25,598 nt of DNA from a virus, in IMG/VR virus record IMGVR_UViG_3300017963_000705, positions 1 through 25,598 of that record. One strand, written 5' to 3'. The position numbers were made by a program, and so were the translations under genes. The notes under the pieces were generated by a model that saw nothing but the letters and a program-made list of their open reading frames with translations, was not told where the DNA came from and did not search any database. Within the stretch, counting starts at the first letter, position 1. Each line of letters begins with the position of its first letter. Below, piece by piece: positions 1,259 to 24,864 of this stretch.

Positions 1259-3226
1259 ATGGCTAAGAAAGAGAACAACCCAAGAAATCCGGCATCGCCG
1301 TTATTCAAAAGACTAACCAGACTTCTATCTGGCCCGGTCGTTAACTACCGCACACAAGTTGGTAGACAAGAAAGAAGAGCAGATCTAGATAAATATCGTT
1401 ATCGTTTCCGTTCTATGTCTGGTCAGGAGTTTAAGAGACACGATTCTAACATGTCTCAGAACTACAACCTTTTTACATCAGCAGCATTCCGTAACCAAAA
1501 CAGAGCAGAGCGTTACATTGACTTTGAGCAAATGGAATACATGCCTGAGATTGCTACTGCTCTTGATATCTACGCTGACGAGATGACGACATCAAACGAG
1601 TATGATCGTCTTCTAAACATTGATTGTCTTAACCACGAAATCAAAACTATCCTTGAGTCTCTATTCTACGATGTTCTAAACATTGAGTTCAACTGCTTTG
1701 GTTGGGCACGCTCTATGTGTAAGTACGGTGACTTTTTCCTTTATATGGACATTGACGAGAAGTTAGGCATCACATCCCTTATTGGTATGCCGAACAACGA
1801 AGTAGAGCGTCTTGAAGGTCAGGACCAAACAAACCCTAACTACGTTCAGTATCAGTGGAATGGTGCCGGTATGACCTTTGAGAACTGGCAGGTTGCGCAC
1901 TTCCGCATTTTGGGCAACGATCGTTACTCGCCATACGGCACATCTGTTTTGGATCCTGCCCGACGTATTTGGCGACAACTTACACTTCTAGAAGATGCGA
2001 TGATTGCTTATCGCGTTGTTCGTGCGCCAGAACGCCGAGTATTCAAGATTGACGTAGGCAACATTCCACCACAAGACATTCCACAGTATATGGAAAAAGT
2101 CAAGTCGGAAATGAAGCGTAACTCTCTTGTAAATGCTTCAACTGGTCGTGTGGATCTTCGCTACAACCCGCTATCACTTGAAGAAGATTACTTTATTCCG
2201 ATGCGTGGTGGCGTTGGGTCGGAGATTACATCGCTCCCTGGCGCCAAGTCTTTGGACGACATTGAGGATGTTAAGTATCTTCGTGATAAGTTGTTCGCAG
2301 CAATTAAGATTCCACAGTCTTATCTAACCAACCTTGAAGGCGGTACAGAAGATAAAACTACCCTAGCACAGAAGGATATCCGTTTCGCAAGAACTATTCA
2401 TAGACTTCAAAGATCGTTGGTTTCCGAGTTGGAGAAGATGGCGATAGTGCATCTTTACACACTAGGCTTTAGAGGTCAAGACCTTTTAGGATTTAAGATT
2501 ACTTTGAACAACCCCTCGCGTCTTGCCGAGCTACAGCAGCTTGAATACATGAAGACAAAGTTCGAGACCGCCACATCAGTTCCAGAAGGCACATTCTCAA
2601 AGCGTTGGGTTGCAGCCAACATTCTTGGAATGTCCGATTCCGAGTTCCTTCGCAACCAGCGCGAAACTTTCTATGATCGTAAATATCAGCAGGCTCTTGA
2701 ATCGATTGTTGACGAAGGCGCTGAGCTTGGCGGCGCCGAAGGCGGTGGTCTCGGAGGAGACCTCGGTGGTGATTTAGGCGGCGACCTTGGTGGAGACTTG
2801 GGTGGCGACCTTGGCGGTGATCTGGATCTCGGTGGCGATGAAGGTGGAGAGGCGCCTGAAGGCGGCGGGGATGACGTTTTATTGGCAACCCCAGGTAGAC
2901 GGGAAGACAATCCTACAAAACACGAGGGAGCGGCTTACAAGCCCGTTGCTGTCGATAAAAGAAAAGGCTCTTCAACAAGACACTCGCAAGGTCCGATGAA
3001 GCGCGAAATCAAGCGAATGGTTCGCGGACCAGAGATGGGAACAACTTCTAGAACCGTGCATCCCGGTAAAGTAGGAGTTCCTGATATGAGAGCACTAGTT
3101 GGTCTAGAAGAGAATCTCAAGCCTACTTATACTAAAGATGAGCACACACTTTTTGAGAACACCAATAAAGTTCGTATGTTAGTAGAACAAATGGAGAGCA
3201 AAGAGGAAGAGAAAAATGAAGCATAA
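1259..3226 (+). CDS. gp20: Portal vertex protein (gp20-like)
   Basis: Twelve copies would form the DNA entry/exit ring of the capsid and dock the terminase. The 655-residue product is longer than T4 gp20 (524). Family-like stretches are FEQMEYMPEIATALDIYADE near residue 90 and the helical GGTEDKTTLAQKD...ARTIHRLQ region near 360-385, the latter a hallmark of T4-type portals. Residues about 490-537 form a low-complexity acidic tract of repeated GGDL units, followed by a basic, presumably flexible tail; this accounts for most of the extra length. It sits directly after the terminase, and its last 11 bases overlap the next gene, so the two are probably translationally coupled. The core assignment is firm; the function of the repeat is unknown. 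Confidence 0.93.
   Translation: MAKKENNPRNPASPLFKRLTRLLSGPVVNYRTQVGRQERRADLDKYRYRFRSMSGQEFKRHDSNMSQNYNLFTSAAFRNQNRAERYIDFEQMEYMPEIATALDIYADEMTTSNEYDRLLNIDCLNHEIKTILESLFYDVLNIEFNCFGWARSMCKYGDFFLYMDIDEKLGITSLIGMPNNEVERLEGQDQTNPNYVQYQWNGAGMTFENWQVAHFRILGNDRYSPYGTSVLDPARRIWRQLTLLEDAMIAYRVVRAPERRVFKIDVGNIPPQDIPQYMEKVKSEMKRNSLVNASTGRVDLRYNPLSLEEDYFIPMRGGVGSEITSLPGAKSLDDIEDVKYLRDKLFAAIKIPQSYLTNLEGGTEDKTTLAQKDIRFARTIHRLQRSLVSELEKMAIVHLYTLGFRGQDLLGFKITLNNPSRLAELQQLEYMKTKFETATSVPEGTFSKRWVAANILGMSDSEFLRNQRETFYDRKYQQALESIVDEGAELGGAEGGGLGGDLGGDLGGDLGGDLGGDLGGDLDLGGDEGGEAPEGGGDDVLLATPGRREDNPTKHEGAAYKPVAVDKRKGSSTRHSQGPMKREIKRMVRGPEMGTTSRTVHPGKVGVPDMRALVGLEENLKPTYTKDEHTLFENTNKVRMLVEQMESKEEEKNEA
2728..2871 (+). 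repeat. In-frame GGDL-type microsatellite in the portal gene
   Basis: Degenerate 12-base units encode Leu-Gly-Gly-Asp about six times in a row and then decay into Gly/Glu-rich sequence. Codon choice varies between units (ggt/ggc/gga, ctc/tta/ctt/ttg), so the amino-acid pattern is better conserved than the DNA. The period of 4 residues does not match the 9-residue calcium-binding RTX repeat. It probably forms a flexible acidic linker on the portal. Confidence 0.8.
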
Positions 3227-10878: not shown

Positions 10879-10933
10879 AAGGATTATAGAATGGGATTAG
10901 TATTAGAAAATGGTGTATGGCAATTACAGGCAG
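10848..10933 (+). repeat. Direct repeat copy 1: fibre end plus adhesin start
   Basis: 86 bases covering the last codons of the fibre gene (LGWAIVSAT, stop), the ribosome site AAAAGGAT and the first 14 codons of the next gene (MGLVLENGVWQLQA). It matches copy 2 at 11713-11797 with 5 substitutions and a 1-base gap by my alignment. The two copies flank the GC-rich gene body. Confidence 0.92.
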
Positions 10934-11688
10934 ACACCGCACGCTCGCTGCTCCTCGCAGACCTCAACTTTGCGGCGCTCGCCTCTGCATCGTGGTCTGA
11001 CGGGAAGCAGACCGTCGACGGCATCGACGTCGCCGTCATCAACACCGCGCGCATGGACACAATCGGGCCGAACGGCACGACCGGCGTGGTGATGGACAGC
11101 AAGACCGGTACCACGCACGAGGCGGACAACCGCGACACGGGTCGGCTTCACGTCGATCTCGCGGAGGTGTTCTCGGCCGGGGCGTGGTACCTCACCAAGC
11201 CCATGTGGGTCACGCTTGAGTTCGCCGCCGCGCTGGATCCCGGGACTACGATCACACGGCAACTGGATCTCGCGGCCGACACGGGTACGGGCTCGGGCGG
11301 CTCGGGGTCGTCCGCGACTCGGTTCTGCTCCGCGCAGCTCGTGGGGACCGCGTCCGGCGCGGGGGTTCGCGGCTTTCGGTCACAGGCTAGCGCCGGCGAT
11401 TTCGGCTCCGCCGCCGAGCTTATGCAGCCGTCGTGGATCGGCATGCTGATCGAGCCTGTCGCCGTGCAGGCTTTCGGCGGGACCGGCACCCCCCCCTCGG
11501 CGCCGTCGCTCGCGACTCACGCCAGCCCTTCGCCGTCGCTGAACGCCACGGGCGCACAGGACCCCGATTGGTTCACGCCGGAGGCGTTCGCGGCCAGCTC
11601 GCGGACGTTGTGCATCGCGGTGGCGGGGAAGTGGTCGACCGCGCCGATTCTGAAGCGACTGCGCTTCTACACGCTCGATCCGTCCTAG
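10891..11688 (+). CDS. Adhesin-like protein with foreign GC-rich body
   Basis: A 265-residue protein. The first 14 codons (MGLVLENGVWQLQA) are AT-rich like the phage and nearly identical to the start of the gene at 11755. From about base 10934 the coding DNA becomes GC-rich (I counted 45 of 60 G+C in 11281-11340). The body looks beta-rich, with DTGRLHVDLAEVF, WVTLEFAAAL, a Gly/Ser linker near 128-136, WIGMLIEP...GGTGTPP and a final RLRFYTLDPS. The W-I-G ... G-G-T order and the last strand also occur in the 11755 gene, so the two are probably distant homologues of one lectin-like fold. The ribosome site is AAAAGGAT. Position behind the fibre suggests a receptor-binding tip; that is inference. 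Confidence 0.72.
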   Translation: MGLVLENGVWQLQADTARSLLLADLNFAALASASWSDGKQTVDGIDVAVINTARMDTIGPNGTTGVVMDSKTGTTHEADNRDTGRLHVDLAEVFSAGAWYLTKPMWVTLEFAAALDPGTTITRQLDLAADTGTGSGGSGSSATRFCSAQLVGTASGAGVRGFRSQASAGDFGSAAELMQPSWIGMLIEPVAVQAFGGTGTPPSAPSLATHASPSPSLNATGAQDPDWFTPEAFAASSRTLCIAVAGKWSTAPILKRLRFYTLDPS

Positions 11689-11743: not shown

Positions 11744-11797
11744 GAGATTATAAAATGGCATTAGTATTAGAAAATGGTGTATGGAAGTTACAGGCAG
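11713..11797 (+). repeat. Direct repeat copy 2: fibre-end relic plus adhesin start
   Basis: 85 bases matching copy 1 (10848-10933). It includes a relic of the fibre gene's last codons and the start of the second adhesin gene. One missing G changes the ribosome site from AAAAGGAT to TAAGAGAT, probably weakening it. Confidence 0.92.
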
Positions 11798-12504
11798 GCG
11801 GGAGCAATGTCACAACTGTTGCACAGACCTTGTCCCCCTCAGCTGGAACTCCATCTAGCATTGCAGATGGTGCTACATTAGATGCTGGGATGTTAAGTGG
11901 GTGGGAAGTTAAAGATCCAAATGGGGTTTTTAACGCCATAACAGATGATGGCTCCACATGCAATATTAAATTTGATCAGGGGACCGGTGGAACCTTCGCG
12001 CCGACCAACGGGAACGGATTTTTAACTAATGGGAAAATTCAATACCCCAATCTTCTTATGGGGGATTTTGATTTTGCCATATACACCGATAACCCAGGAA
12101 GTGTTGCGAATTTATATACAGAGATCGCTATAATGGCAGGCGGCGGCAACGCGGTTAATGAAGCGCACTGGCTAGGTCATAGGTACGGAAGATGGTCCAC
12201 GGCGAACGCCAAATACTATGGAATGGGCGCCTTCGCCTCCCGCGCACTTATACACAACGGAACTTCAAATTTAGCCAGAACCACAGCAAGATGGATTGGT
12301 ATTAAGCGTGTGAGCCAGACAGTTTCGTTCCGTGAAGGCGGCACAGCCGCAACGCCAAGTTGGACCGACACCGACGAGCTCTGGGACGCCGCCGGCGGTG
12401 CCGTCCGAATCGCAATATCATTTTATGCTGGCTCCGCAACTGAGGAGACTCACAGGCTTTATAAAGTTATTCTCAATGGCTTTGAGTACACGGCTACTCC
12501 ATAA
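11755..12504 (+). CDS. Adhesin-like protein, paralogue of the 10891 gene
   Basis: A 249-residue protein starting MALVLENGVWKLQA, shared with the previous gene, followed by an AT-rich body typical of the phage. It is rich in Gly, Thr, Ala and aromatic residues, predicting a beta-sandwich. WIGIKRVSQTVSFREGGTAA lines up with WIGMLIEPVAVQAFGGTGTP of the upstream protein, and both end in a strand of the type RLYKVILNG / RLRFYTL. No catalytic motif is seen. It is probably the resident adhesin or fibre tip, the GC-rich gene being the newcomer. The weak ribosome site (TAAGAGAT) may lower its expression. Alternatives are a virion decoration protein. Confidence 0.72.
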   Translation: MALVLENGVWKLQAGGSNVTTVAQTLSPSAGTPSSIADGATLDAGMLSGWEVKDPNGVFNAITDDGSTCNIKFDQGTGGTFAPTNGNGFLTNGKIQYPNLLMGDFDFAIYTDNPGSVANLYTEIAIMAGGGNAVNEAHWLGHRYGRWSTANAKYYGMGAFASRALIHNGTSNLARTTARWIGIKRVSQTVSFREGGTAATPSWTDTDELWDAAGGAVRIAISFYAGSATEETHRLYKVILNGFEYTATP

Positions 12505-17834: not shown

Positions 17835-20696
17835 ATGTCAGTTAAGAATTACCGATTTGTATCCCCAGGCGTTTTCGTCAACGAAATTGACAACTCCCAA
17901 CTTCCTGCTTCCCCAGCCGGAATTGGTCCAGTTATCATTGGTCGCGCCGAGAAGGGACCTGCCTTAAGACCAACAACAGTTAACTCTTTTGAAGAGTTTG
18001 TAAATGTTTTCGGCACCCCGAGCCCCGGTAGTACCGGTGGTGATGTGTGGCGACAGGGCGCCAACACGACAGCTACGACTTATGGCATGTATGCCGCACA
18101 AGCTTATCTCCGAAATAGCTCTCCTTTAACTTACATTCGTTTGCTTGGCGCTGAGTCGGACAACGTCACTGACGATCAGTCCGGTCTTGATGAAGCTGGC
18201 TGGACATTGGGAGGTGAAGCTTATGGATTGGTCCTCTTTACAAGAAACTCCTCCAGCGCTCCCGGCGCCCTTAGTGTTTCTGGTGCTTTGGCAGCTGTTT
18301 TTTACACAGATGCTGGAACAGATGTAAAATTAAGCGGCTCCATTGTTTCTTCATCAGCTGGTGCTGGAACCACAGGCAACACAGCATTTTCTAGTAGTGT
18401 TGATTCGCTTACGGGGTCCGACGCTTTGTTTACATCCGCAACTGGCGGAACAAACAAAGAGTTCACTGCATTGATCGTTTCAGGCTCGGGACAGGAAAAG
18501 ATTACATTCAACTTTACAAGAGGCGATTCGAAGTACATTCGTAAAGTATTTAACACAAACCCACAGCTAACAAATACTAGAATCACCGATGCTTCGCAAA
18601 GAAAGAGTTACTTCCTTGGTGAGACCTTTGACCAGCACATTGATGAGATTATCTCTACTCCTTCGAACGGTGTGGCTGCGGCAGTAGTCAAGGTCAGACT
18701 CCAAGGTGGCACCGTCACCGGCGATGATTTCAAGTATCAGCTGCAGCCAGCTGAAACACCATTCATTATTGCCTCAAAGTTGGATCCATCTGAAACTCCA
18801 AAGAAGTTGTTCAAGTTTGTTGCAAGAGGCGAAGCCGGTGATTGGACAAGCAGCAATCTCAAAATTTCCATTCAGGATATCAAGCGCTCTCCAAGCGAGG
18901 ATTCGGATTATGGTACTTTCTCTGTTGTAGTGCGACACATCTCCGACAGCGACAACGTTGTTCGTGTTGTTGAGCAGTTCAACAACTGTGATTTGAATCC
19001 TAACTCCCTCAACTACGTTGCGCGCAAGATTGGTGATAAGTACGAGTCTTGGGAAGAGTCAGACAGACTTTACAGAGAGTATGGTAACTATCCAAACAAT
19101 TCTGCTTACATTTACATTGTTATGAATTCCGATGTAGACGCTGGGTTCACAAACGCAGCACTTCTTCCTTTCGGTTTCGAAGGCATCGTAAAGTACACAG
19201 ATGAAGCTTCATTGGGTTCCGGCTCCGCTACTACAGAAGGTAATTGGATTACTGGAAGTATTGTCAACCCAATCAGAGATGGCGAGTACAGCTCGGTTGC
19301 AGATTACCAGTTGAATTCTCCGTTCATTATCTCTGGTTCTGGCTTGACTGCCTCTGTTGCTTACCCACGCCCACTACTGCGTGCTAACGCTACACAGGGC
19401 AACCTTGCAAACCCAACAGATGCTTACTTCGGCTTGCAGACTGCACGCGACGGTGGAAGCACAGTGTACGCTCGCTCGGTAGGCGATATTCTTCGTCCTC
19501 GCGGCGGGGTCGTTGGGCAGTTTACAGCAGACCCTGCTCTTAGCGCCTCGCTATCACCAACATTCACACTTGATGATATTTCAGGCTCTGGTGTTTGGTC
19601 CGAAGGCTCCTCTACTTCAAATTCATTGACATTCGTTAATGGAGCAATTTCTGGTGTACTCGACGCAGGTTATGATCGTTTCACAGTTCCGCTTTACGGT
19701 GGTTTCGACGGTCTTAACATTACTGAAATGGATCCTTTCACATCTGCAGCAATGCCTGGGGCTCCATCCGATACAACAAGCTACTCTTTCTTCTCTATCA
19801 GAAGAGCAATCGATTCTGTTGCAGACCCAGAGGTTGTTGAAATGAATTTGGCTGCCATTCCAGGTCAGACTCAGGATGGTCTCACAACTCACTTGGTAAG
19901 AACTTGTGAGGATCGTGCAGATGCTCTCGCAGTTATTGACCTTCCATCGGCATTCCAGCCGAGAGAAGATAGCACTTCGATTGATCGTCTAAACACGCCT
20001 TCTACCATTACGACATTGGTTAATGGTCTGCGCGATAGAAACCTCAACTCTTCTTACGGTTGTGCTTACTATCCATGGGTTAGAGCAAGAGACACAATCA
20101 ACGGTGCTTTTGTATGGCTTCCGCCATCCGTAGCAGCTATCGGTACATTCTCTAGCTCACAGCGTAGAACACAGGTTTGGTTCGCACCAGCTGGTTTCAA
20201 CCGTGGTGGACTAACAGAAGGCTCTGCCGGCATCCCAGTTATTGATGTAGCTCACCAGCTACGCCGCAAGGATCGTGACGATCTTTATGGGGCGAACATT
20301 AACCCAATCGCTAAGTTCCCAGCTGAGGGTGTTGTAATCTTCGGTCAGAAGACACTACAAGTTACGCCTTCTGCTTTGGATCGCATTAACGTCCGACGTC
20401 TAATGATCTTTGTCAAGAAGCGCATCTCCCAGATCGCTGCTGGCTTGCTCTTCGATCCAAACGTTCGGCAGACTTGGAAGCGATTCACAGCACAGGTTAA
20501 CCCATTCTTGGCTGACGTTAAGACAAACTTTGGTCTTTCCGATTACAGAGTTGTTCTTGATGACACAACCACAACTCCTGATCTTGTAGATAGAAACGTT
20601 CTATATGCGAAGATCTTCTTGAAGCCAACAAGAGCAATCGAGTTCATTGCGATTGATTTCAACATCACAAGAACAGGTGCATCGTTTGACGATTAA
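17835..20696 (+). CDS. gp18: Contractile tail sheath protein (gp18-like)
   Basis: Subunit of the sheath, whose contraction drives the tube into the cell. The N-terminus YRFVSPGVFVNEIDNS is the classic sheath start, followed by GPVIIGRAEKGP. The conserved C-terminal domain is complete: INVRRLMIFVKKRISQIAAG, then the WKRFTAQVNPFLADVKTN region, then a strand ending IEFIAIDFNITRTGASF. At 953 residues it is far longer than T4 gp18 (659). The extra length falls in the middle (about 110-680), in Ser/Gly-rich blocks that would be surface domains on the sheath. It ends just before a strong hairpin. Function is certain; the role of the extra domains is not. Confidence 0.95.
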   Translation: MSVKNYRFVSPGVFVNEIDNSQLPASPAGIGPVIIGRAEKGPALRPTTVNSFEEFVNVFGTPSPGSTGGDVWRQGANTTATTYGMYAAQAYLRNSSPLTYIRLLGAESDNVTDDQSGLDEAGWTLGGEAYGLVLFTRNSSSAPGALSVSGALAAVFYTDAGTDVKLSGSIVSSSAGAGTTGNTAFSSSVDSLTGSDALFTSATGGTNKEFTALIVSGSGQEKITFNFTRGDSKYIRKVFNTNPQLTNTRITDASQRKSYFLGETFDQHIDEIISTPSNGVAAAVVKVRLQGGTVTGDDFKYQLQPAETPFIIASKLDPSETPKKLFKFVARGEAGDWTSSNLKISIQDIKRSPSEDSDYGTFSVVVRHISDSDNVVRVVEQFNNCDLNPNSLNYVARKIGDKYESWEESDRLYREYGNYPNNSAYIYIVMNSDVDAGFTNAALLPFGFEGIVKYTDEASLGSGSATTEGNWITGSIVNPIRDGEYSSVADYQLNSPFIISGSGLTASVAYPRPLLRANATQGNLANPTDAYFGLQTARDGGSTVYARSVGDILRPRGGVVGQFTADPALSASLSPTFTLDDISGSGVWSEGSSTSNSLTFVNGAISGVLDAGYDRFTVPLYGGFDGLNITEMDPFTSAAMPGAPSDTTSYSFFSIRRAIDSVADPEVVEMNLAAIPGQTQDGLTTHLVRTCEDRADALAVIDLPSAFQPREDSTSIDRLNTPSTITTLVNGLRDRNLNSSYGCAYYPWVRARDTINGAFVWLPPSVAAIGTFSSSQRRTQVWFAPAGFNRGGLTEGSAGIPVIDVAHQLRRKDRDDLYGANINPIAKFPAEGVVIFGQKTLQVTPSALDRINVRRLMIFVKKRISQIAAGLLFDPNVRQTWKRFTAQVNPFLADVKTNFGLSDYRVVLDDTTTTPDLVDRNVLYAKIFLKPTRAIEFIAIDFNITRTGASFDD

Positions 20697-20760: not shown

Positions 20761-21336
20761 ATGCCATTTTGGACATCAGCATTATCAGAACCAAGAAGAG
20801 CACATCGATTTTTACTTACGTTGCCAAATTTGGCTTCTGTCGATGACGCTTTCAGATACGAACAGTACCTCGCCAAGGCGGTTAAAAAGCCATCTTACAC
20901 GGTATCTGACACCCCACACAAGTTTTTAGGAAACACTTACTATTACCCCGGTACCGTTACATGGGAGCCAGTTAATGCCACAATCGTTAATGCGGTTAAT
21001 CCAGATGGAAACAAGATTCTTTATGATGCTCTCGTAGGTTCCGGTTACCTTAAGCCTGATGTGCAGGAAGATGTTTTCTTCAACCCAGCACAGGATCCAG
21101 GCACTATAAACAAGTTTGATGCTGTTAACCAGTTAGGTAATGTTATTATTGAAGAGTTGAATGGCCAAGGTGGTTTAATTGGTACTTGGACACTTAACAA
21201 CGCTTTCATTACTTCTGCTACATTCGGTGATTTAAGTTACGAAAGTGATGATATCCTTAATATTGAAATTAATTTCCGCTATGATTGGGCCGATTATGTA
21301 TCAGGCGAAGCAGTAGCAGCAGTGACAGCATTATAG
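20761..21336 (+). CDS. gp19: Tail tube protein (gp19-like)
   Basis: Subunit of the rigid inner tail tube through which DNA passes. The 191 residues compare with 163 in T4. The family pattern is clear: ARRAH-like start (EPRRAHRFLLTLPNL), a helix with YLAKAVKKPSYTVSD, the YYPGTVTWEPVNATIVNAVN strand pair near 58-77, and the final WTLNNAFITSATFGDLSYES with DILNIEINFRYDWADY. The order sheath then tube is conserved in contractile phages. A weak purine-rich site (caggaga) precedes the start. Confidence 0.92.
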   Translation: MPFWTSALSEPRRAHRFLLTLPNLASVDDAFRYEQYLAKAVKKPSYTVSDTPHKFLGNTYYYPGTVTWEPVNATIVNAVNPDGNKILYDALVGSGYLKPDVQEDVFFNPAQDPGTINKFDAVNQLGNVIIEELNGQGGLIGTWTLNNAFITSATFGDLSYESDDILNIEINFRYDWADYVSGEAVAAVTAL

Positions 21337-21355: not shown

Positions 21356-22198
21356 TTGTCACGCAGAAATAACTTAGAGCGGCTTGGCGCACCGCAACCC
21401 GACGCGCCAGCACCCCCCACATCAGAAGCAACAGACCTTTTTGCTTTCGTCAATCCAACAGAATTTGTTGAGTTGCCGAGTAAAGGTTTGTTTTACCCAG
21501 AAGGACACCCGCTTCACAATCAGACTGTTATTGAAATCAAACACATGACAGCAAAAGAGGAAGATATTCTGACTTCCGAGGCTTTGCTGAGCAACGAACT
21601 CGCAATAGATCGTTTGCTTGAGTCGGTGATTGTAAATAAAGATATTAGAGTTGATGATCTTCTTTTGGGAGACAAGAGCGCAATCCTCATTGCAACAAGA
21701 GTTACCGGATTCGGCCCTCACTACGAGGTTACAGTTACCTGCGGTACATGCACCGAAAAATCAAATCAAGTATTCAATCTAGATGATATTGAGCCAGTGA
21801 AGATCGATCTTCCTGATGGTGTAGAGAACGAAGGAGAAGGTGTATTCTCTTTTGATTTGCCTGTATCTAAGGTTCGCATATATGTTCGTCTTTTGACTTC
21901 TAGGAATGAAAAGTCAATTGCGAACAGCATAATCTCGAAAAACAATAAGACGATTCAAAACCCAATCACTGGCTTGATCAAGGGAATTGTTGTACAAGCT
22001 AATGAGCATACAGATAAAGATATGTTACATAAGTTTGTTGAAGCAATGCCTCTTCCAGATCTCAAGCTTCTTCGCAAGACATACGAAAAGATAAAGCCTG
22101 ATTTGGATTTGAACATGGATTATGTTTGTCCGCATTGTGGCAGTGAGGAGAAAGTGGGCATGCCGATGACGGCAGCCTTTTTTTGGCCTGACTCCTAA
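21356..22198 (+). CDS. gp26: Baseplate hub protein/chaperone (gp26-like), probable frameshift partner
   Basis: 280 residues from TTG 21356, preceded by AAGGTGAT. It resembles the T4 gp26 family: VELPSKGLFYPEGHPL near 39-54, then IEIKHMTAKEEDILTSEALL, then GDKSAILIATRVTGFGPHYE. Two CxxC pairs (CGTC near 126-129 and CPHC near 260-263) could bind zinc. The T4 protein belongs to the central baseplate hub and its assembly. The last codons read AAFFWPDS before TAA, and the Phe codons lie in a run of seven T (22178-22184). A conserved gp51-like sequence is continuous in another frame just beyond, so some ribosomes probably extend this protein. Confidence 0.85.
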   Translation: MSRRNNLERLGAPQPDAPAPPTSEATDLFAFVNPTEFVELPSKGLFYPEGHPLHNQTVIEIKHMTAKEEDILTSEALLSNELAIDRLLESVIVNKDIRVDDLLLGDKSAILIATRVTGFGPHYEVTVTCGTCTEKSNQVFNLDDIEPVKIDLPDGVENEGEGVFSFDLPVSKVRIYVRLLTSRNEKSIANSIISKNNKTIQNPITGLIKGIVVQANEHTDKDMLHKFVEAMPLPDLKLLRKTYEKIKPDLDLNMDYVCPHCGSEEKVGMPMTAAFFWPDS

Positions 22199-22379
22199 GT
22201 ATCAAGAAACAGTATACGAAGAATTCTTTTTACTTAAGCATCACGGCGGGTGGTCCTTCACCGAGCTTTATAACCTTCCCATTCCTTTGCGCCGCTGGTT
22301 CCTTGAGCGGCTCTCGGAAGAATTCAAGAGACAAAGAGAAAACTCTGAGGCGTCTTCCAAGAACGCAAGAAGAAAGTAA
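22170..22379 (+). CDS. gp51: gp51-like hub assembly chaperone, no start codon, reached by frameshift
   Basis: The frame open from 22170 to TAA 22377 reads GLTPKYQETVYEEFFLLKHH, GGWSFTELYNLPIPLRRWFL and ERLSEEFKRQRENSE onward, about 60 residues. The pattern (helix, GGWS, ELYNLP, LRxWFxERL, charged tail) is that of short gp51-like hub assembly proteins and of the second half of tail chaperone pairs. There is no ATG, GTG or TTG before the conserved part; the only near-start is CTG 22188, without a ribosome site. The frame overlaps the end of gp26 across a seven-T run. It is therefore most likely made as a gp26-gp51 fusion by ribosomal frameshifting. A one-base sequencing error joining the two genes is the alternative. 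Confidence 0.7.
   Translation, partial: RQPFFGLTPKYQETVYEEFFLLKHHGGWSFTELYNLPIPLRRWFLERLSEEFKRQRENSEASSKNARRK
22178..22184 (+). promoter_or_regulatory. Candidate frameshift site: run of seven T in gp26
   Basis: Zero frame reads TTT TTT TGG; the downstream gp51-like frame reads on from GGC at 22185. A +1 slip gives ...AAFFGLTPKYQ; a -2 slip gives one more Phe. A stop (22167-22169) closes the downstream frame just upstream, so entry must occur between 22170 and 22198. Confidence 0.6.
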
Positions 22380-22427: not shown

Positions 22428-22757
22428 ATGAGTGATATTGTAAAAGATGTACTAAATTTAAACAACCTGGGCAAGCAACCTCTAAATGAAGTGGTGTATA
22501 GCAAGTTTGCCGGTCAGGTGCAAAGAATGTTGTTGGATCTATATTTTGGTGGTTTCGACGTGCCACTGCAGATCATGGGATCTACTTCACAAGTTGATTC
22601 ATTTATGCGAGCCCTCCGTAGTGAAAAGCGTTACATGGATTCATATATAAAAAACGGACTTAATGATCCGAAAACAATGAAATCAAAGTTTTCTCTATCA
22701 AAAGCTGTTCAAAAGTTTGAAAAAGAAACTGGCTTAAGGTGGCCGTTTAAAAACTAG
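22428..22757 (+). CDS. Small unrecognised tail-module protein
   Basis: A 109-residue, basic, mostly helical protein beginning MSDIVKDVLNLNNLGKQPLN. It has no membrane segment or Cys. I chose ATG 22428 because the ATG at 22424 runs into a stop after three codons; AAGGA lies upstream. It opens the last unit of the window and is 10 bases from the tape measure gene. Position between hub chaperone and tape measure suggests a tail assembly factor or a virion component that binds the tape measure. I see no family motif. Confidence 0.7.
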   Translation: MSDIVKDVLNLNNLGKQPLNEVVYSKFAGQVQRMLLDLYFGGFDVPLQIMGSTSQVDSFMRALRSEKRYMDSYIKNGLNDPKTMKSKFSLSKAVQKFEKETGLRWPFKN

Positions 22758-22767
22758 GAGTTTATAA

Positions 22768-24864
22768 ATGCCTACCCCAGAAGAGTTGGAAGCACTTAAA
22801 CGCGAAGCGCAGCTTAAACGAGAGATAGCAAATCTTACAGAAAGAATACGCGAAGCAAATTTACAGTCGGCCAAAGCCCTCGCGGACGCCACGGCCCAGA
22901 AGGGGCTATATTCTGAAGCAATTAAAGAAGAAATAGCTTCTGAAGAGCTTCGCCTTGAGGCGCTTAAAAAGAACCTTGAGGCAGCAGAGGCTGGTAGCCG
23001 CGCAGAGCAAAAATATAGAGTTAGAATTCAAAAGAAGATTAATAAACTAAAAGAACTTGCAGAGGTTGAAGGGCAAGTATCCGAACGTGAAAAAAAGGTT
23101 CAAGATGATTTTAAAGCCGGCGCCGGTATATACAAATCACAGCTTAATTCGTACTTAGGACTTACCGGTGGAATGAAAACCTTCGCCCAGGCTTTGGACG
23201 GAGGAACCAGCGGTCTTAAGGGATATGCCACCGCAGCTCTCGAATCAATTAAATCAGGCGAGCTGCTTAAAGGCGTTGCACTTAAGCTTGTCGATGTAAA
23301 TATACAATTCGCCCTAGAGCAAGACAAAGTTATTTCTAACTTTAGACAGCAAACAGGCGCTGGAACAGAATTCAATAATGTTATTCGCGATACAGAACGC
23401 GATACATTCGCTGCTGGTGTTACGCTAGAGGGCACAGCACAAGCTGTCACAGCGCTTAAGAATCAGTTTACAGACTTTACGTATCTCAACCAAGATACAC
23501 AAAAGGAGGTTACCAAGACTACGGCATTGCTAAACCAAATGGGCTTTGATTTTGGCACTCAAGCTAACATCATGCAAACTGCCACTCAAGCAATGGGAAT
23601 GTCTGTAGACCAATCTCAAGACCTTTTACTTGATTTGGCTTCCACAGCACGTTCGTTAGGAATAGATATTAACAAGCTTGGTGCCGATTTTGAGGCAAAC
23701 AAAGACTTTATTGTACGATTCGGTGATGATGGGCAAGAAGTATTCGAAGAGTTAGCAGTCCAAGCCAAGGCTCTAGGAATGGAACTCTCCGGTTTAATTG
23801 GCGTTGTAGAAAAATTCAAGACATTCGACAGTGCCGCCCAATCAGTTGGCCGTCTGAATGCTATCTTGGGTGGTCCGTTCTTGAATTCTATTGACATGCT
23901 TAACGCAGCTTACGAAGACCCAATCGAAGGTATCAGGATGCTTCGTGAAGGGTTTGATCAAGCTGGTGTTTCTATTGAGGATCTGTCTGGTGCAGAACTA
24001 GAAGCTTTCGCATCTGCCTTGGGCATGTCAACAACTGAGACAAAGAAGCTTCTTGGAGCCACAAACGAAGAACTTGAGATTCAGAGAATCAAGCAAGAAG
24101 AATTAGCTGAACAAGCAGCTGCTACTCAGGCCATTCAAGAGAAACTTAATAATGCGATGAAAGGCTTTTATGTCAATCTTGGCCCAATAGTCGATGGATT
24201 GACTCCGTTAATTGACAAACTTGGTGTTGCAGCCCAAGCCATGGGTGATTTTATCAATAGCGGCGCCGGAATTCCAATCTTTATGGGCCTGATAGGTGCT
24301 TTAGGTGGCGCCGGGATCGGCTTGGCTCTCGGATTATCTAAAGCACTCCAAGCAGCCACAGCGGCAATTCCTGTTGTAGGTCCTGCTTTGGCGCTAGCGC
24401 AAGCACAAATGGTAAATGCTTTTACTGGACAAGCTTTGGCGTTTGCTGGTATAGGCGCCCTTGCCGGCGGCGCGGTGGGTGGGCTTCTCGGAGTCGGCGT
24501 CAATGCAGCTGCTGGGGTTGGCGGATTCGGCAGCGGAAAAGAGGGCGGTGGTGTGCCTAAAGAATATGCTGGCAAATATGCAAACGGCGGTATTGTAGGC
24601 GGTCAAGGCACTGCAGTTGCGCTCGTGGGCGAAAGAGGGCCAGAGTTTGTTGAAATGCCCATGGGAACAAGGGTGGACACTGCACCAAAGACTGAAGCGC
24701 TAACAAAGAGCATAGAAACTTTGATAACTAAACTAGATAAGATGGGTTCTGGCACACAGCAGATCGCTGTTTATGTTGGCCAAGAAAAGATCGATAATAT
24801 TGTTGTTAAAGCGCTAGATAGTACAGCCGGGAGAAATACATTTAGCCCATTTACAAACGGCTAG
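22768..24864 (+). CDS. Tail tape measure protein
   Basis: It would fill the growing tube, set tail length and leave first during infection, the position occupied by gp29 in T4. The 698-residue chain starts with a long coiled coil (about 3-115), followed by Ala/Gln-rich helices. A hydrophobic Gly/Ala-rich zone lies near 500-590. The typical tape-measure end is present: YANGGIVGGQGTAVALVGER followed by GPEFVEMPMGTRV, near 605-640. T4 gp29 (590 residues) is shorter and lacks such an end, so this gene resembles tape measures of other tailed phages. It begins 10 bases after the small gene and ends 10 bases before the next. Function is secure from architecture. Confidence 0.9.
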   Translation: MPTPEELEALKREAQLKREIANLTERIREANLQSAKALADATAQKGLYSEAIKEEIASEELRLEALKKNLEAAEAGSRAEQKYRVRIQKKINKLKELAEVEGQVSEREKKVQDDFKAGAGIYKSQLNSYLGLTGGMKTFAQALDGGTSGLKGYATAALESIKSGELLKGVALKLVDVNIQFALEQDKVISNFRQQTGAGTEFNNVIRDTERDTFAAGVTLEGTAQAVTALKNQFTDFTYLNQDTQKEVTKTTALLNQMGFDFGTQANIMQTATQAMGMSVDQSQDLLLDLASTARSLGIDINKLGADFEANKDFIVRFGDDGQEVFEELAVQAKALGMELSGLIGVVEKFKTFDSAAQSVGRLNAILGGPFLNSIDMLNAAYEDPIEGIRMLREGFDQAGVSIEDLSGAELEAFASALGMSTTETKKLLGATNEELEIQRIKQEELAEQAAATQAIQEKLNNAMKGFYVNLGPIVDGLTPLIDKLGVAAQAMGDFINSGAGIPIFMGLIGALGGAGIGLALGLSKALQAATAAIPVVGPALALAQAQMVNAFTGQALAFAGIGALAGGAVGGLLGVGVNAAAGVGGFGSGKEGGGVPKEYAGKYANGGIVGGQGTAVALVGERGPEFVEMPMGTRVDTAPKTEALTKSIETLITKLDKMGSGTQQIAVYVGQEKIDNIVVKALDSTAGRNTFSPFTNG

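Follow-up and report, generated by a model that had tools for sequence, protein, structure and literature searches.

A probable +1 frameshift linking gp26- and gp51-type tail-assembly chaperone domains in a T4-related myovirus

Chaperone pairs of long-tailed phages

In phage lambda, G coats the tape measure, while tube subunits are brought in by the T portion of GT; frameshifting of this kind has been described as conserved widely in long-tailed phages 'except T4' (PMC5009743). Among the hub assembly chaperones listed for T4 are gp26 and gp51, the latter being absent from the particle (PMC3004832). Papers that cite Vladimirov et al. 2022 (Virology 566:9-15) credit it with showing that some T4-like phages have a short gene plus a long, fused one (PMC10885494) and that TAC-N genes of T4-like phages contain poly-T signals for −1 shifting (PMC12846349). 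In the record of Acinetobacter phage Stupor, gp26, gp28 and gp51 are already annotated as tape-measure assembly chaperones. The concept of a frameshifted T4-like chaperone pair is therefore already published, and the locus described here, from a viral stretch of 25,598 nucleotides (IMGVR_UViG_3300017963_000705, hereafter the window), is ordinary in concept and a variant in direction and site. What it seems to add is that, in a T4-related group, the shift at UUU_UUU_UGG would run in the +1 direction. We found no description of such a +1 site in this group, or of its contrast with a −1 site T TTT TTC, in the sources consulted, among which Vladimirov et al. 2022 is represented by the papers citing it. 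We assign a probability of about 0.86 to the reading that this is a tail-assembly-chaperone locus of a T4-related myovirus whose long form is produced by +1 ribosomal frameshifting.

Gene order and protein families at the window locus

The gp26-like short form (TAC-N) is encoded on the plus strand at 21356–22198, from a TTG start to a TAA at 22196–22198, and comprises 280 residues ending ...AAFFWPDS. The gene closes with the codons ...ATG ACG GCA GCC TTT TTT TGG CCT GAC TCC TAA, within which lie the seven T (22178–22184) and the following GGCCT that make up the putative shift site TTT TTT TGG CCT (22178–22189); the stop codon is 11 nt past the T-run. A second frame of 69 codons, +1 relative to gp26, occupies 22170–22379 and begins RQPFFGLTPKYQETVYEEFFLLKHHGGWSFTELYNLPIPLRRWFLERL...; its overlap with the gp26 gene is TTTTTTTGG. 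Upstream it is shut by a TGA at 22167–22169 that is retained in most close relatives, and its first ATG, GTG or TTG is a TTG at 22287, already within the conserved domain. The sequence-only reading had described the frames, the stop at 22167, the overlap 22170–22198 and the T-run correctly at every coordinate. The −1 frame ends at a TGA at 22189–22191, and the domain is therefore reachable by a +1 (or −2) change only; the classical −1 arrangement, in which an X XXY YYZ heptamer precedes a −1-frame domain, is not the one seen here, the domain being in the +1 frame. Read after a +1 shift, the gp51-type C-terminal domain (TAC-C) would extend over 22185–22379 of the same strand and begin GLTPKYQETVYEEFFLLKHHGGWSFTELYNLPIPLRRWFLERL....

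Profile searches place a sheath gene at 17835, upstream of both tube and pair, a gp19-like tail tube gene directly upstream of gp26 (20761–21336, plus strand; phrog_4542 tail tube, E=2.9e-20) and a tape measure gene downstream (22768–24864, plus strand; phrog_167 tail length tape measure, E=7.3e-6). The order tube, pair, tape measure puts the pair in the position held by lambda G/GT. Between the pair and the tape measure gene lies a 109-aa ORF (22428–22757) with no family match in profile searches. Elsewhere in the window, the adjacent ORFs 10891–11688 and 11755–12504 have the N-terminal motif LVLENGVWxLQA in common and probably encode duplicated structural proteins, and tandem GGDLGGDL repeats occur at about 2770–2850, in the C-terminal portion of the protein encoded by a large structural ORF (1259–3226).

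The window gp26 matches PF12322 (T4_baseplate) with E=2e-19 and 70.6 bits against a curated cut-off of 24.5, and phrog_150 ('baseplate hub') with E=1e-21; its AlphaFold model (pLDDT 83) matches the hub protein of phage SP-15 (E=1e-17). An AlphaFold model of a T4-type gp51 (pLDDT 91) likewise retrieves gp26-type hub proteins, that of SP-15 included. Both T4 proteins belong to PF12322 (gp26, 8.8e-64; gp51, 3.9e-52) and to phrog_150, of whose 282 positions T4 gp26 covers 14–235 and T4 gp51 13–280, and their family profiles match each other at 99.3% (E=3e-20). Judged by these profiles T4 gp26 and gp51 are paralogues, one a short form and the other an in-frame long form. The gp51 of cyanophages consists of the C-terminal domain only (phrog_634 'baseplate hub assembly catalyst', 6e-28; phrog_150 positions 227–277, 3e-6). 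The cyanophage second frame matches the T4 gp51 C-terminus in profile comparison (E=6e-10, and E=1.8e-12 with an enlarged set), and the +1-type and −1-type domains are co-linear from the FF seam (profile match 95.5%, E=1.4e-8). Compared directly, the window-type domain and T4 gp51 match weakly (E=0.043), so the homology of the second frame to T4 gp51 runs through these intermediates; the 69-aa frame of the window alone reaches only E=0.14 against phrog_634. The gp51-like identity given to this frame from the sequence alone thus holds by way of intermediates, and the correspondence with T4 gp51 is limited to its C-terminal domain.

Other families come less close. Against DUF6760 (PF20546) the window domain scores 22.9 bits (E=8.9e-5), below the 27-bit cut-off, and it appears related to that family without being filed as a member; PF20546 matched none of 14 control genomes. 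No match of the window domain to Phage_P2_GpE (PF06528) was obtained up to E=10, and tblastn against E' of Xanthomonas FoX-type phages gave E=0.1–0.2 only.

The locus is regarded as a tail-assembly-chaperone pair because of its gene position, the homology of its two parts to gp26 and to the C-terminal region of gp51 in T4, and the existence of short and long paralogous forms. The partners had been called baseplate hub proteins; their membership of the T4 gp26/gp51 family (PF12322, phrog_150) bears this out as to kinship, and their role is better described as that of putative tape-measure or tail-assembly chaperones.

Conservation of the seven-T site and direction of the shift

Relatives of the 69-aa frame are encoded by 399 IMG/VR stretches, and in the best 80 the second ORF lies +1 over the same site without exception (80/80); these first 80 relatives, fetched by protein similarity, constitute the unbiased set. 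Across 136 distinct loci, part of which were fetched with the seven-T pattern itself, the site reads TTTTTTTGGCCT in 129, TTTTTTTGGACT in six and TTTCTTTGGCCT in one. Over 95 clusters with less than 85% identity the TTTTTTTGGCCT positions show essentially no variation, while flanking wobble positions vary; the sequence-only reading had proposed such a comparison to see whether relatives retain the T-run. Codon choice in 60 distinct gp26 genes is equally selective: the median majority-codon share of 21 invariant two-fold-degenerate columns is 0.62, and the only single-codon columns among them are the two slip Phe, TTT in 60/60 and 59/59, in genes where TTC accounts for 165 of all 735 Phe codons. 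In each of the 80 seven-T loci that were inspected, the gp26 frame closes 15–24 nt beyond the first T of the run. A Flavobacteriales MAG contig and the isolates Mel-JY01 and immuto have the same +1 relation; no relatives of the Mel-JY01 frame were found in IMG/VR. The central proposal made from the sequence alone, that gp26 and the gp51-type frame form a frameshifted short/long pair, is thus supported by the conservation of T-run, frame and junction, by gene position and by homology.

Homopolymers are error-prone in some sequencing technologies, and a true count of six T would turn the locus into one ordinary fused gene. A pattern scan of IMG/VR for the site and a downstream GGxGGxTGG, with an exact T count and the same spacing, returned at least 120 viral contigs with exactly seven T and none with exactly six, and isolates with other site sequences retain the same frame relation. 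The chance of an assembly or sequencing error is accordingly negligible, and the simple six-T fusion, which the sequence-only reading had named as potential counter-evidence to its own proposal, is ruled out by the same counts. The seven-T pattern is not due to chance, assembly error or a fused gene.

Alternatively, ribosomes might reinitiate once past the gp26 stop and translate the second frame into a small protein of its own. An ATG stands near that stop in 81 of 81 loci of the cyanophage type, and one located 25 nt downstream of the first T of the run, the commonest candidate start downstream of the site, occurs in 39 of the 136 window-type loci. This +25 ATG, however, lacks even a weak Shine–Dalgarno match in all but one of the 39, and 47 of the 136 distinct loci, the window included, have no ATG, GTG or TTG ahead of the GGW motif; no alternative start is conserved across the 136. 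Reinitiation would also leave unexplained both the invariant shift site and the in-frame long forms of T4 and Bacteroidota, and we consider it very unlikely. The absence of a start codon, advanced as a property of the second frame, is real in the window and is not a group-wide feature; it is the shift site that characterizes the group. Candidate starts of the kind that were to speak against frameshifting do exist in some relatives, but they are not conserved, no ribosome-binding site precedes them, and the relatives that have them retain the slippery run.

The direction of the shift can be judged from loci with the domain in the +1 frame behind differing sites: TTT TTT TGG in Mel-JY01, TTT CTT TGG in immuto, TTT TTT CAC in SP-15, TTT TTT AGT in LIS04, TTC TTT CGT in GXN1 and TTT CTA TTC in LR756508, with two further loci (L182 and L183) showing the same +1 architecture at non-identical sites. 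Slippage of RNA polymerase on the seven T is an unlikely alternative source of the fusion: the window does offer a homopolymer, and mRNAs with one U fewer would carry exactly the fused frame, yet the homologous sites TTTCTTTGG (L066–L068 and immuto), TTTTTTC (SP-15 and L182) and TTTCTATTC (LR756508) contain no long homopolymer. A ribosomal shift of −2, giving AAFFFGL, would arrive in the identical final frame, and tRNA-Phe can re-pair two bases back on TTTTTTT; by codon–anticodon rules such re-pairing is impossible in GXN1 and LR756508, where only +1 re-pairing is allowed, and a −2 shift is on this ground quite unlikely. Re-pairing of tRNA-Phe in +1 is possible at every +1-type site, non-homopolymer ones included. 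Because it fits all of these sites and −2 does not, +1 ribosomal slippage is favoured over both −2 and transcriptional slippage. The '+1/−2' frame of the sequence-only reading is confirmed as a frame and refined to a probable +1 shift.

We infer both that frameshifting occurs at this site and that its efficiency would be such that most ribosomes read gp26 only and yield the 280-aa TAC-N. In a minority, tRNA-Phe in the P site on UUU would slip +1 within UUU UUU UGG; reading would resume at GGC CUG ACU, and the gp51-type domain of 64 residues added in this way would bring the long form, TAC-NC, to 340 residues, with the junction ...AAFFGLTPK.... If the roles are analogous to those in lambda G/GT, the tape-measure protein would be coated by the short form and tube subunits recruited by the extra domain. 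No conserved downstream RNA structure was detected by RNAalifold in 95 representatives, the hairpin-like fold of the window itself not being conserved, and no Shine–Dalgarno-like stimulator was obvious in the window group. To our knowledge the best-known +1 sites do not include UUU_UGG.

Comparison with known chaperone junctions

The gp26 and gp51 of T4 are members of the same PF12322/phrog_150 family as the window pair, the short form likewise ending at the FF junction and the long form carrying a homologous C-terminal domain. In T4, however, these are two separate paralogous genes on opposite strands, whereas the window has one gene and a change of frame. T4 gene 26 ends GAG TTC TTT GAG and lacks a T-run, and no second domain follows it.

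A closer arrangement is found in loci of the cyanophage type (Sf-FS3; also phiAS5, IC12 and RL38J1), where, as in the window, a short gp26 is followed by the homologous domain out of frame across the same Phe-Phe junction. Here the domain lies in the −1 frame behind T TTT TTC (T TTT TTG in RL38J1), in contrast to the startless +1 frame behind TTT TTT TGG of the window. Three features recur in 81 of 81 cyanophage-type loci (L101–L180 and L091; for example L091, 3660–3700): the heptamer T TTT TTC is invariant, a GAGGG stands exactly 9 nt upstream of it as a possible Shine–Dalgarno-like stimulator, and an ATG lies 5 nt past the start of the gp26 stop codon. The GAGGG is reminiscent of the dnaX stimulator.

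A third arrangement occurs in two contractile-injection-like loci of Bacteroidota (L431 and L432, each at 859–1623), which adjoin sheath-like and tube-like genes. A DUF6760 (PF20546) domain there follows the gp26-like part directly across an SFF junction (...QSFFMLRL... and ...QSFFMARL... respectively), the two being, unlike those of the window, in one open frame. This suggests that DUF6760 is the chaperone C-terminal domain in these loci. In another Bacteroidota genome (L430, reverse strand, 1115–1665) a short gp26-like ORF beside a tube gene overlaps a −1-frame DUF6760 ORF that has no obvious ATG, GTG or TTG near its beginning, and a frameshift or a rare start is possible.

Outside this family, lambda G/GT and P2 E/E' have the gene position and short/long logic of the window. 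In P2 the shift is −1, at the T TTT TTG of ...GFLSP, while the window would shift +1, and the window gp26 is a 280-aa PF12322 protein, unlike the ~90-aa gpE. Tail-chaperone frameshifts of +1 are found in SPP1 and PSA; the chaperones of these phages and of HSTV-2 belong to other protein families than that of the window, and their slippery sequences differ as far as is known. The HSTV-2 tail chaperone, like that of the window, involves a +1 frameshift (PMC5009743).

Annotation has followed these arrangements unevenly, some records missing the long form or calling a fragment a separate hypothetical gene. SP-15 (SP15_046, L086:3758–3877) and immuto (KNV73_gp038, L083:3833–3943) each carry a tiny annotated hypothetical gene that corresponds to only the 3' part of the frameshifted domain, and these annotations therefore truncate it.

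The window group would extend the rule of frameshifted tail chaperones to a large environmental T4-related group with the opposite direction of shift, and would supply a naturally occurring +1 site that has been conserved between genomes of high divergence. Taken with the other systems, it makes it likely that a homologous chaperone junction is decoded in either direction according to lineage, +1 at UUU UUU UGG in the window group and −1 at U UUU UUC in the cyanophage type, and that it gave way to gene duplication in T4 phages and to in-frame fusion in some injection-system-like loci, the Phe-Phe seam or its equivalent always being kept. If so, the direction of recoding would be an evolvable trait and the ratio of short to long form a conserved one, and the panel of +1, −1, duplicated and fused arrangements allows one to ask whether selection preserves that ratio.
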